Shown here: one piece after another, positions 27,734 through 45,361 of the stretch
How the letters are laid out: each line of letters begins with the position of its first letter
Position numbering within the stretch: the first letter of the stretch is position 1
NCBI RefSeq assembly: GCF_004168035.1
Contig: NZ_SDPU01000035.1
Coordinates: 186,001 to 250,000 of the forward strand
Direction: 5' to 3'
DNA from: Nocardioides iriomotensis
GTDB lineage: Bacteria; Actinomycetota; Actinomycetes; Propionibacteriales; Nocardioidaceae
Length of the DNA: 64,000 nt
Program-made: the position numbers and the translations under genes
Notes under the pieces: model-generated
Databases searched by the model: none
Seen by the model: the letters and a program-made list of their open reading frames with translations, nothing else
Told to the model about the DNA's origin: nothing

Positions 27734-28130
27734 GGATGAGCTGGCCGGGCGGCCGCGAGGAGGTGACTCCTCGAGGAAGGTCCGGGCTCCGAAGGGCAAG
27801 GGTGGTGGGTAACGCCCACCCGGGGTGACCCGCGGGACAGTGCCACAGAAAGCAAACCGCCGCCGCGCTTGCGCGGAGGTAAGGGTGAAACGGTGGTGTA
27901 AGAGACCACCAGCGTTCCGGGTGACCGGAACGGCTCGGTAAACCCCACCCGGAGCAAGGTCAAGAAGGACCGTCGCGAGACGGTCTGCGCGGATGTTCGA
28001 GGGCGGCCCGCCCGAGTCCGCGGGTAGACCGCACGAGGCTGTCGGCAACGGCAGCCCTAGATGGATGGTCGCCGACCGCGACGCCGCGAGGCGCGCGGGG
28101 ACAGAACCCGGCCTACAGGCCAGCTCATCC
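27734..28130 (+). ncRNA. rnpB: RNase P RNA (class A)
   Basis: 397 nt. The P1 helix is a perfect 13-bp pairing of 27734-27746 (GGATGAGCTGGCC) with 28118-28130. Conserved cores are present: GAGGAAGGTCCGGGCTCC after P3, ACAGTGCCACAGAAA, GGTAAGGGTGAAACGGTG, AGATGGATGGTCG, and the 3' block ACAGAACCCGGCCTACAGGCC. It is the catalytic subunit that matures tRNA 5' ends. Open reading frames across this stretch are not real genes. A 71-nt repeat element begins 23 nt after its end. Confidence 0.97.
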
Positions 28131-28153
28131 CTCGTCCCGGCGGCCATCGCCTG

Positions 28154-28224
28154 CTGTAACGCGGGGTTGTGGACGCTTCACAAGGCGCATGCCGCTGGGG
28201 AAGCGTCCGTACGCCTGGGGAAGT
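28154..28224. repeat. 71-nt stem-loop element, copy A
   Basis: Matches 43810-43880 at 61 of 71 positions with no gap. GGACGCTT (28171-28178) pairs with AAGCGTCC (28201-28208), extended by two wobble pairs; in copy B the same two positions are Watson-Crick pairs, so pairing is conserved. A small inner hairpin is present but in another register. A second hairpin follows directly (CCGCCGTACGGCGG, 28226-28239). Confidence 0.75.
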
Positions 28225-28259
28225 GCCGCCGTACGGCGGTCGTCAACGTCACCTGTGAG

Positions 28260-28419
28260 GGGCAAGACGCGCCGACTCGGCAGGTCTGAAGGGGCAGGAC
28301 GCGCCGACTCGGCAGGGCTGGGAGGGCAAGATGCGCCGACTCGCGCTCTCGCGGCGCGAGGTTCGAGCCGGGTCGGCGGGTCTGCGTGGGAGGTTCGAGC
28401 CGGGTCGGCGGAAGCGGGC
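28260..28419. repeat. Array of five 32-bp dyad units
   Basis: Units begin at 28260, 28292, 28324, 28356 and 28388, exact 32-bp steps. The first three read GGGCA(A/G)GA(C/T)GCGCCGACTCG; the last two are diverged (GAGGTTCGAGCCGGGTCGGC) but keep the register. Each holds an imperfect CGCCGA-C-TCGGCG dyad. The array abuts the M3 peptidase stop at 28421. Confidence 0.75.
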
Positions 28420-40806: not shown

Positions 40807-43791
40807 GTGAGCGACGGGCGGCTGTCCACGGCGGCCGGGCAGCTCGCCCGGCTGGGCTTCCGTGACGTCGAGCGGTCGACGGCCGCCCTGGAACGGATCG
40901 GCCCGCACGCCGACGTGCTGATGCACCTCGGCTCGGTCGCGGCCGACCCCGACCAGGCCGCGTGGTACCTGGCCGACCTCGCCGACCGGGTCGACGAGCG
41001 CGACGCGATGCTCGAGGCCGTGGCCTCCGACGAGGGCACCGCGATGCGGCTGCTGGGGGTGCTCGGCGCGAGCTCGGCCCTGGGCGACCACCTGCTGCGG
41101 CACCCGGAGCACTGGCGCGACCTCACCGACCCGACGCTCGGCTCGACGAGGCCGGCGGCGTTCCACGTGCGCGGCCGGATGCTCGAGGCCGTCGGCGCCG
41201 ACCCGGCCGACGAGACCCCTGTCGCCACCCTGCCGGACGGAGAGGCGGTCGACGTGCTGCGCGTGCAGTACCGGCGGCTGCTGCTGCGCCTCGCCGCGCG
41301 CGACCTCTCCCACGACGTCGGCGTGGACGACGTCGCCGCGGAGCTCTCCGACCTGGCGGCCGCGACCCTCGAGGCGGCCCTCGCGATCGCGCGGGCCCGG
41401 ATGGGGGAGGCGGCCGAGTCCGTCCGTCTCGCGGTCGTCGCGATGGGCAAGTGCGGCGGGCACGAGCTCAACTACGTCAGCGACGTCGACGTGATCTTCG
41501 TGGCCGAGCCGGCCGAGGGGCACGACGAGGTCGCCGCGCTGCGGGCCGGCACCCAGCTCGCCTCGCACCTGATGCGGATCTGCTCCGACCACACCGGCGA
41601 GGGCACGATCTGGCCGGTCGACGCCGCGCTGCGCCCCGAGGGCAAGGCCGGCCCGCTGGTCCGCACGCTGGCCAGCCACCAGGGCTACTACGGGCGGTGG
41701 GCCAAGACCTGGGAGTTCCAGGCCCTGCTCAAGGCGCGGCCGGTGGCCGGCGACCTGGCCCTCGGGCGGGAGTACGTCGAGATCGTCTCGCCGATGGTGT
41801 GGACCGCCGCCGAGCGCGAGGGCTTCGTCACCGACGTGCAGTCGATGCGCCGCCGGGTCATCGAGCACATCCCGGCCGCCCATGCCGACCGGCAGCTGAA
41901 GCTCGGTGCGGGCGGCCTGCGGGACGTGGAGTTCGCGGTCCAGCTGCTGCAGATGGTGCACGGCCGCGCCGATGTCGACGTCCGCTGGCCCACGACGCTG
42001 AGCGCGCTCGCCCACCTCACCCGCGGCGGGTACGTCGGGCGGGAGGACGGCGCGGCCCTCGACGAGTCCTACCGGTTCCTGCGCGCCCTCGAGCACCGCA
42101 TGCAGCTCGCCCAGCTCCGCCGGACGCACGTCGTACCGACAGACGAGCACGCGCTGCGCTGCCTCGGCCGCGCGATGGGGCTGCGGAAGGACCCGGCCGA
42201 CGAGCTCGAGCGGCAGTGGAAGCGGCACAAGCGCGAGGTCCGCCGGCTGCACGAGAAGCTCTTCTACCGCCCCCTTCTCGCGGCCGTCGCCAAGCTCCCC
42301 GGGGACGAGGTGCGGCTGTCGCCGGAGGCGGCGCAGACCCGGCTGGCGGCGCTCGGCTACGAGGACCCGGTCGCCGCGATGCGCCACCTCGAGGCGCTCA
42401 CCGCCGGGGTGAGCCGGACCGCCAGCATCCAGCGGACCCTGCTGCCGGCGATGCTGGAGTGGTTCGCGGAGTCGCCCAACCCCGACGCGGGGCTGCTCGG
42501 CTTCCGGCGGATCTCCGACGCGCTCGGGTCCACGCACTGGTACCTCAAGACGCTGCGTGACGAGGGGCAGGTCGCGCAGCGGCTCGCCACCGTGCTGGCC
42601 TCCAGCCGCTTCGGCACCGACCTGCTGCAGCGTGCGCCCGAGGGCGTCCGGATGCTCGGCGAGGACGACGGCCTCGTGCCGCTGACCCGCGAGGCGCTCG
42701 ACAAGGAGATGGACGCCGCCGCGCGCCGGCACGACGACCCGGTGGAGGCGATCACGGCGCTGCGCGCGATCCGGCGGCGCGAGCTGTTCCGGATCGCGGT
42801 GGCCGACCTCGTCGAGGACCTCGACGTGGCCGACATCGGCTACGCGCTGAGCGACATCACCAGCGCGACGCTCGACGCCGCGCTCACCGTGGCGACGTCG
42901 GCGATCGAGGCCGAGCGGCGTGCCCCGCTGCCGACACGGATGGCGATCATCGCGATGGGACGGTTCGGCGGAGCCGAGCTCGGGTTCGGCAGCGATGCCG
43001 ACGTCATGTTCGTGCACGACCCGCTCGAGGGCGCGTCGTCGCAGGAGGCGTCCCGGGCGGCCCACGAGGTGGTCCAGGAGCTGCGGCGGCTGCTCGCGCT
43101 GCCCGGCACCGACCCCGAGCTCGCCGTCGACGCGGACCTGCGGCCCGAGGGCCGGTCGGGCCCGCTGGTGCGCACCATCGAGTCGTACGCCGGCTACTAC
43201 GCGAAGTGGTCGGCGGTGTGGGAGGCACAGGCGCTGCTGCGGGCCGACCCGTCGATCGGCGACCCAGACCTGCGTCGGCGCTTCCGCGAGCTGATCGACC
43301 CGCTGCGCTTCCCGGCCCAGGGCATCGCCACGGACGACGTACGCGAGGTGCAGCGGATCAAGGCCCGCGTCGACGCCGAGCGCCTGCCTCGCGGCGCCGA
43401 CCCCGCCACCCACCTCAAGCTCGGCCGCGGTGGGCTCGCCGACGTCGAGTGGACGGTCCAGCTGCTGCAGATGCAGCACGCCGGCCGGGTCGAGGGCCTG
43501 CGCACCACGCGCACCCTCGACGCGCTCGAGGCCGCCGTCGAGGCCGAGCTGATCGGGCTCGCCGACGCGCAGTCGCTCGCCGCGGCGTGGCGGATGGCGA
43601 GCGGCCTGCGCAACGCGATCGTGCAGGTGCGCGGCAAGGGCTCCGACCAGCTGCCGCGTGACACCCGCGAGCGCGCCGCCGTCGCGCACATCCGCGGCTA
43701 CGCGCCCGGACAGTCCGACAAGCTCGTCGACGACTACCTCCGGGTCACCCGCCGGGCCCGCCAGGTCGTCGAGCGCGTGTTCTGGGGCTGA
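40807..43791 (+). CDS. glnE: Bifunctional glutamine synthetase adenylyltransferase/adenylyl-removing enzyme
   Basis: 994 aa, with two nucleotidyltransferase domains. The first has AMGKCGGHELNYVSDVDVIF (about 213-232), the second AMGRFGGAELGFGSDADVMF (about 716-736); each carries the GxxxGxELxxxSDxD metal site. The N-half removes AMP from glutamine synthetase and the C-half adds it, according to nitrogen supply. The length and layout match Mycobacterium GlnE (Rv2221c), which is next to glnA2 (Rv2222c). GTG 40807 is the start. A long reading frame on the opposite strand is a GC artefact. Confidence 0.96.
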   Translation: MSDGRLSTAAGQLARLGFRDVERSTAALERIGPHADVLMHLGSVAADPDQAAWYLADLADRVDERDAMLEAVASDEGTAMRLLGVLGASSALGDHLLRHPEHWRDLTDPTLGSTRPAAFHVRGRMLEAVGADPADETPVATLPDGEAVDVLRVQYRRLLLRLAARDLSHDVGVDDVAAELSDLAAATLEAALAIARARMGEAAESVRLAVVAMGKCGGHELNYVSDVDVIFVAEPAEGHDEVAALRAGTQLASHLMRICSDHTGEGTIWPVDAALRPEGKAGPLVRTLASHQGYYGRWAKTWEFQALLKARPVAGDLALGREYVEIVSPMVWTAAEREGFVTDVQSMRRRVIEHIPAAHADRQLKLGAGGLRDVEFAVQLLQMVHGRADVDVRWPTTLSALAHLTRGGYVGREDGAALDESYRFLRALEHRMQLAQLRRTHVVPTDEHALRCLGRAMGLRKDPADELERQWKRHKREVRRLHEKLFYRPLLAAVAKLPGDEVRLSPEAAQTRLAALGYEDPVAAMRHLEALTAGVSRTASIQRTLLPAMLEWFAESPNPDAGLLGFRRISDALGSTHWYLKTLRDEGQVAQRLATVLASSRFGTDLLQRAPEGVRMLGEDDGLVPLTREALDKEMDAAARRHDDPVEAITALRAIRRRELFRIAVADLVEDLDVADIGYALSDITSATLDAALTVATSAIEAERRAPLPTRMAIIAMGRFGGAELGFGSDADVMFVHDPLEGASSQEASRAAHEVVQELRRLLALPGTDPELAVDADLRPEGRSGPLVRTIESYAGYYAKWSAVWEAQALLRADPSIGDPDLRRRFRELIDPLRFPAQGIATDDVREVQRIKARVDAERLPRGADPATHLKLGRGGLADVEWTVQLLQMQHAGRVEGLRTTRTLDALEAAVEAELIGLADAQSLAAAWRMASGLRNAIVQVRGKGSDQLPRDTRERAAVAHIRGYAPGQSDKLVDDYLRVTRRARQVVERVFWG

Positions 43792-43809: not shown

Positions 43810-43880
43810 CTGTAACGCGGGGTTATGGACGCTCAACAAGCGGCATTCCGCGTGGGAAGCGTCCATCCGCCTGGGGAAGT
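43810..43880. repeat. 71-nt stem-loop element, copy B
   Basis: Aligns without gap to 28154-28224 (61 of 71 identical). ATGGACGCT (43825-43833) pairs with AGCGTCCAT (43858-43866) over 9 Watson-Crick pairs; inside, GCGG-CATT-CCGC forms a second stem. A separate hairpin GTCCG-CTC-CGGAC (43886-43898) follows. It begins 18 nt after the glnE stop. Confidence 0.75.
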
Positions 43881-43905
43881 ACGGCGTCCGCTCCGGACGA
43901 GCCAC

Positions 43906-43937
43906 CGGCAGGATGCGCCGACTCGGCGGTCCGCCCG
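43906..43937. repeat. Single 32-bp dyad unit
   Basis: CGGCAGGATGCGCCGACTCG and onward matches units of the arrays at 28260 and 45266; CGCCGA-C-TCGGCG here is a perfect dyad. It lies 25 nt after stem-loop copy B, in the same order as at 28.2 kb. Confidence 0.7.
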
Positions 43938-45265: not shown

Positions 45266-45361
45266 GGGTGAGACACGCCGACTCGACGGGTCTGAGAGGG
45301 CAAGACGCGCCGACTCGACGCGTTTGAGAGGGCAAGATGCGCCGACTCGGCGGGGTGGGGG
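45266..45361. repeat. Array of three 32-bp dyad units
   Basis: Units at 45266, 45298 and 45330, each 32 bp (GGG(T/C)(G/A)AGA(C/T)(A/G)CGCCGACTCG). The third has a perfect CGCCGA-C-TCGGCG dyad. The array fills the gap between the SRPBCC stop (45265) and the ABC permease stop (45364) almost exactly, and may act as a bidirectional terminator. Confidence 0.8.

Follow-up and report, generated by a model that had tools for sequence, protein, structure and literature searches.

Two composite repeats in intergenic DNA

The window, a stretch of 64,000 nt from the Nocardioides iriomotensis genome (G000; 4.71 Mb in 47 contigs), holds two related composite repeats in intergenic DNA. Copy A was confirmed to follow rnpB, and copy B starts 18 nt past a TGA at 43789-43791, downstream of a gene that we take, with the first-pass annotation, to be glnE. 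The features are as follows:

27737-28131, + strand: rnpB, for class A RNase P RNA, lying upstream of copy A
28154-28226, + strand: copy A, family 1; REP-like end CTGTAACGCGGGGTTGTGGACGC..., imperfect hairpin and CCTGGGGAAGTGC tail
28226-28239, no strand assigned: palindrome 2 of copy A, CCGCCGTACGGCGG, as read from the sequence
28260-28343, + strand: family 2, three 32-bp-spaced units, GGGCARGAYGCGCCGACTCG
28357-28409, + strand: family 3, two units, GGAGGTTCGAGCCGGGTCGGC; the terminal repeat of the paralogue at C21:114329-115186
43810-43880, + strand: copy B, family 1, sub-type 2, CTCAACAAGCGG...CCGCGTGGGAAG
43886-43898, no strand assigned: palindrome 3′ of copy B, GTCCGCTCCGGAC, not conserved among copies
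43906-43925, + strand: family 2, one unit after copy B
45298-45349, + strand: family 2, two units without a family 1 core

The cores of the two copies (28154-28224 and 43810-43880) aligned without gaps at 61 of 71 identical positions, as had been reported, and the resemblance was beyond chance expectation. The 22-nt 5′ part of family 1 occurred exactly twice in the window, with no occurrence expected from 100 dinucleotide shuffles. The end of copy A is the same end that flanks a nuclease-like gene at C13:128336-129588. The 32-bp units claimed after both copies were present, and the differing second hairpins of A and B read as described. As a conserved part of the layout, however, the second hairpin did not rise above shuffles, the mean best stem in genomic copies being 4.1 against 3.8. 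Many copies have the motif GTACGGCGG in common at this position.

Dispersal of family 1 in the genome

A BLAST search with the 73-nt core found about 36 copies of family 1 in the genome, and the pattern TGTAACGCGGGGTTRTGGACGC, allowing up to three mismatches, gave 34 matches against none for the reversed pattern. Family 1 is therefore a dispersed repeat rather than a two-copy RNA. The first-pass annotation had set its reading against the case that related genomes hold no more copies; the opposite was found, as relatives do carry them.

The 5′ end of family 1, TGTAACGCGGGGTTATGGACGC, is a terminal inverted repeat. The 22-nt 5′ part is almost invariant, whereas the remainder varies and falls into two sub-types, of which A and B represent one each. 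Copies were arranged as singlets and as inverted doublets. At C2:80628-80698 and C16:172296-172366, 70-bp palindromes are built from two facing family 1 5′ ends, and several further copies form convergent pairs spaced by 0.2-1.25 kb. In the copies at C28:71080 and C28:108824 (L049, L052), another 5′ hairpin (GGTTGCCACGGCCAAC, GCTTGCCACGGCCAAG) replaces TGTAACGCGGGGTTAT.

Tests for RNA structure and for a peptide

A structured RNA had been proposed as one reading of the element, which could then be a 3′UTR element, a terminator or a riboregulator. The imperfect hairpin is stable, covariation weakly exceeds that in shuffles, and the two C28 copies have exchanged the first hairpin for another complementary pair. 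The two changes from wobble to Watson-Crick pairs that had been noted were real for A against B, but one of these two pairs, between columns 16 and 58, formed in only 15 of 32 genomic copies. Covariation within the genome was weak, with seven of 18 pairs covarying, mostly through one to three sequences, and no Rfam family matched the element. Pairing within copies was no better than pairing across copies, both in G007 (0.812 against 0.794) and in G012 (0.742 against 0.749), and no covarying helix beyond the consensus was found in these two Nocardioides genomes. The same ends also frame genes. A structured RNA is thus not supported and would seem highly improbable.

The alternative of a short conserved peptide, starting MDASQGACRWGSV, fared worse. 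Its frame was open in 24 of 32 copies, with stops in the other eight and the start codon missing in several. Variability among the 32 family 1 copies was lowest at the third codon position (0.187, against 0.215 and 0.270 at the other two). On codon-position variability and stops the peptide was ruled out; it is likewise unsupported and has virtually no chance of being correct.

A gene framed by family 1 ends

At C13:128336-129588, a single gene of 329 codons (L061; C13:128415-129401) lies between two convergent family 1 copies. The related genome G002 has 16 copies of the 22-nt family 1 end, with a different body sequence, and a homologous gene whose protein is 61% identical and which is framed by convergent TGTAAC ends in the same manner. 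The two frames adjoin different genes, i.e. they occupy different loci. When the elements were aligned in one orientation, similarity was found at positions 1-64 and from position 202 to the very end, and no credible similarity was found in the 1 kb on either side. This indicates that gene and ends behave as one movable unit. By reading, the ORFs that adjoin the two genes looked FtsK/EccC-like, SAF-like, aldolase and LuxR-like, unrelated to the AbiEii nucleotidyltransferase toxin, and no AbiEii-like neighbour was noticed at either locus.

Pfam gave no hits for the C13 protein itself. Its homologues matched AbiEi_4 (winged helix; PF13338 in several), a second sub-group of them matched REase MTES_1575/DUF559, and no Pfam transposase domain was found in the framed proteins. 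An AlphaFold model made from seven homologues (mean pLDDT 86.9) matched the AbiEi antitoxin 6y8q with E 1.5e-4. Matches that were weak by E-value were to the catalytic domain of the homing endonuclease I-Bth0305I (3r3p; probability 0.99, E 0.11) and, further down the list, to Vsr (1vsr; E 3.7). Judged from match lengths and the Pfam positions in homologues, the 6y8q match would cover the N-terminal and middle part and the 3r3p match the C-terminal part. A viral structure library returned no strong match, but its higher-ranking entries included Vsr-type homing endonucleases and DUF559. Residues D242, E251 and D253 were invariant in eleven homologues. In the model, the protein combines an AbiEi-type winged helix with a C-terminal Vsr/I-Bth0305I-like (PD-(D/E)XK-related) domain; nuclease activity is a prediction from this fold and the conserved acidic residues.

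A gene for a matrixin-like metalloprotease also lies between two convergent family 1 copies (C20:105902-106939, L062), by chance or as possible cargo. It was considered as a homologue of the nuclease-like protein and is not one.

Three repeat families at copy A

Family 2, the 32-bp units, gave 72 hits in the genome and contains GACGCGCCGACTCGGC. The reverse complement of GACGCGCCGACTCGGC frames a paralogue in the relative G001 (C1:1679925-1680806), where it has 99 copies, and another in the relative G004 (C180:14847-15722), with 25 copies. In the N. iriomotensis genome, no partner gene was found adjacent to family 2 repeats, and this gene may have been lost or may lie in an assembly gap. A 32-bp pair at C15:255215-256864 had been predicted to frame a homologue, wrongly, as the protein in between is unrelated. 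Family 3 gave 41 hits and flanks the C21 paralogue on both sides. Since each of families 1-3 has its own paralogue frames, copy A is a composite of three repeat families, tied to different paralogue groups and stacked in one intergenic site.

Pairing of genes and repeats across Actinomycetota

Each of seven genomes of the genus contained four to eight homologues. An inverted-repeat score of at least 20 across the gene was found at 18 of 25 scored loci in the genus, where the control had a median of 11.5 and a 95th percentile of 15.5. Over a wider set of actinobacterial homologues, 46 of 76 reached this score, compared with one of 563 control intervals shifted within these loci; the remaining 30 lacked a strong inverted repeat. 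Further loci came from Nocardioides, Kribbella, Jiangella, Rhodococcus, Blastococcus, Geodermatophilus, Nocardia and others. The end sequences were clade-specific (TGTAACGCGGGG, GATTACCA, ATGATCA and others), and the repeat 3′ of the gene typically lay 0-50 nt beyond the stop codon.

The gene-flanking repeat was dispersed in 15 further genomes, at 9-56 copies, and was almost or fully absent from genomes of other clades. As the patterns were picked after viewing the gene flanks, reversed patterns and other genomes serve as the controls. G001 had 23 copies of GATTACCACGGGATG-type ends and G006 had 56 of the GATTACCAGGGGATG type, each matching the variant at its own gene, and other members of the genus had 0-3 copies of these types. 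Nine Nocardioides genomes with TGTAAC gene ends held 9-32 copies, against none in two other-clade genomes and none for the reversed pattern. For ATGATCAYGTTCANC, 34, 27 and 17 copies were found in two Jiangella genomes and one MAG, and none in two other-clade genomes. The L177 genome also had none, and its own ends match the pattern only partly.

In N. guangzhouensis and N. islandensis, the majority of copies were exact 70-bp inverted doublets. At six N. guangzhouensis loci (L225, L226, L228, L230, L232 and L235), CTATCGGACACC lay at most a few bases away from several of the 70-bp doublets, forming composites like those of the window. In N. pelophilus (G011), TGTAACACGCTGTTC ends also occurred as 40-bp-spaced direct repeats (C99:7333-7427 and C281:20210-20264).

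Repeat type and protein phylogeny agree. Of the 12 proteins with the TGTAAC label, 11 fell in one clade (support 99), and the twelfth, from Rhodococcoides, owed its label to a chance hexamer. Four repeat labels required 10 changes on the tree, compared with a mean of 27.8 when shuffled. These data bear on whether the nuclease-like gene is a passenger and the repeats are conventional MITEs or REPs, mobilised by an IS transposase or a RAYT that escaped notice. Terminal inverted repeats are indeed a property of MITEs. A passenger, however, would not readily account for one protein family being bracketed by unrelated repeats from each clade to the next, for repeat type tracking the protein tree, or for framed proteins without a Pfam transposase hit, and this explanation appears quite improbable.

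Mobility and proposed mechanism

Syntenic intergenic sites without the element were found in relatives, at rnpB in G001 and at two sites in G002 (C47:143840 and C47:155899). No empty site was base-exact among the relatives compared, whose divergence is too great for junctions to be placed to the base, and the flanks held no consistent target-site duplication. In one MAG, two separate sites carried the gene with its inverted repeats (L201/L205), and the two units were 78.6% identical. Members at L150/L155 and L167/L170 were vertically inherited in place across species, so the gene itself would seldom transpose. Carriage by plasmids or phages was considered and rejected, with one weak hit in plasmids and none in phages.

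The first-pass annotation had also raised a REP-type mobile element, and this reading is well supported by the dispersed family, its inverted doublets and the terminal inverted repeats around a partner gene, with further support from the syntenic sites that lack the element. Together with the observed clade-specific pairing and the different loci, this points to copies A and B probably belonging to a REP/REPIN-like family of miniature mobile DNA, mobilised with a nuclease-like partner. That the nuclease-like protein itself mobilises the repeats is what we infer from these observations.

AbiEi antitoxins bind inverted repeats and autoregulate, so the AbiEi-like part of the protein may recognise the repeat. 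It would bind the terminal repeat, and the nuclease domain would nick or cut there, possibly with the palindrome extruded or single-stranded. A copy of the element would then be made at another intergenic position, possibly by way of repair, with the protein acting in trans on the small copies. If positions next to a resident repeat are tolerated or preferred by new copies, stacking would result.

The same behaviour of AbiEi antitoxins, and the structural match of the protein model to AbiEi, would also fit repeats that are binding sites of an AbiEi-like regulator or nucleoid protein, with the flanking repeats as operators and the dispersed copies as its regulon. A regulator with a regulon would explain poorly why both gene ends are framed, one repeat typically lying just past the stop codon, or why related genomes have gene and repeats at different loci. 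Nor would it readily explain the 70-bp inverted doublets of some genomes, the doubled gene unit in one MAG and the missing copy at orthologous sites. We regard it as possible, if unlikely.

Comparison with known systems

The mobile family proposed here most resembles REPIN-RAYT systems (PMC3116915, PMC8266576). In both, short intergenic palindromic repeats occur singly and as inverted doublets of ~70 bp, a gene present in one copy has its own repeats on either side, gene and repeat descend together, and there are several families per genome. RAYT is thought to recognise, cut and copy REPINs (PMC3116915), and the mechanism proposed above would be this supposed role carried out by another enzyme. 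In contrast to RAYTs, which are HUH tyrosine transposases, the partner has an AbiEi-like winged helix and a Vsr-like nuclease fold, and Pfam searches of the protein and its homologues gave no match to a Y1 (HUH) transposase. The ends are TGTAAC or other clade-specific sequences rather than GTAG at the foot of the palindrome, and the system occurs in Actinomycetota. With no HUH transposase, the arrangement, though REPIN-RAYT-like, was not classed there.

CGTC-tagged REPs are likewise REP families without a RAYT partner (PMC3733652), but the CGTC tag is absent from the ends seen here. In a 2013 survey they apparently lacked a dedicated transposase, and none was listed in Actinobacteria (PMC3733652). 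MITEs and insertion sequences share terminal inverted repeats and forms with and without a gene, whereas here the framed gene has no transposase domain and no target-site duplication was seen. EDxHD/Vsr-type homing endonucleases (I-Bth0305I, PDB 3r3p) share the predicted fold of the C-terminal domain; the present genes differ in their inverted-repeat frame and many dispersed copies, and were not found inside an intron or intein. The AbiEi antitoxin of type IV toxin-antitoxin systems (PDB 6y8q) resembles the N-terminal and middle fold, with PF13338 in several homologues, and differs in lacking the nuclease-like domain and the several diverged paralogues per genome found here.

Wider distribution and significance

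REP-like repeats are among the commonest repeats of bacterial genomes, and to our knowledge RAYTs are their only dedicated partner enzymes. The pairing of one gene with its own repeat in many actinobacteria suggests an unrecognised class of mobile DNA. Its newness depends on the inferred function being right and rests on the enzyme class having no relation to known mobilisers. In a literature search that covered few subscription journals and no preprints, no report joining DUF559 or AbiEi with REP or palindromic repeats was found. If true, a partner enzyme of a second kind, unrelated to RAYTs, would explain orphan repeats, give a role to a very large family annotated as AbiEi-antitoxin-like or as DUF559 'endonuclease domain-containing', and mean that small DNA can also spread by a nuclease-based route. 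As gene and repeat are both defined, direct binding, nicking and deletion tests are feasible.

With a DUF559-like query, 16 loci with small DUF559 genes were collected from Proteobacteria, Deinococcus and a cyanobacterium, a small sample that includes near relatives. At least one strong palindrome lay within about 160 nt in 15 of the 16, nearly all of the CCCTCTCCC/CCTCCCC type, and palindrome density was 5.1 per kb near the genes and 0.21 per kb farther off. On balance, we lean towards AbiEi-like and DUF559/MTES_1575-type (Vsr-like) endonucleases being an unrecognised class of mobile-DNA enzymes, in Actinomycetota and probably in Proteobacteria and Deinococcus, each mobilising its own palindromic family by cutting and not by known transposase chemistry.

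Several of the small DUF559 genes lie within conserved operons (sufB-sufC, paaD-paaZ and NAD(P) transhydrogenase). Palindromes of the CCCTCTCCC type stand beside the DUF559 genes of L304-L319, for example at L305:2302-2403 and 2906, at L307:2406, and at L313:2403 and 2786.
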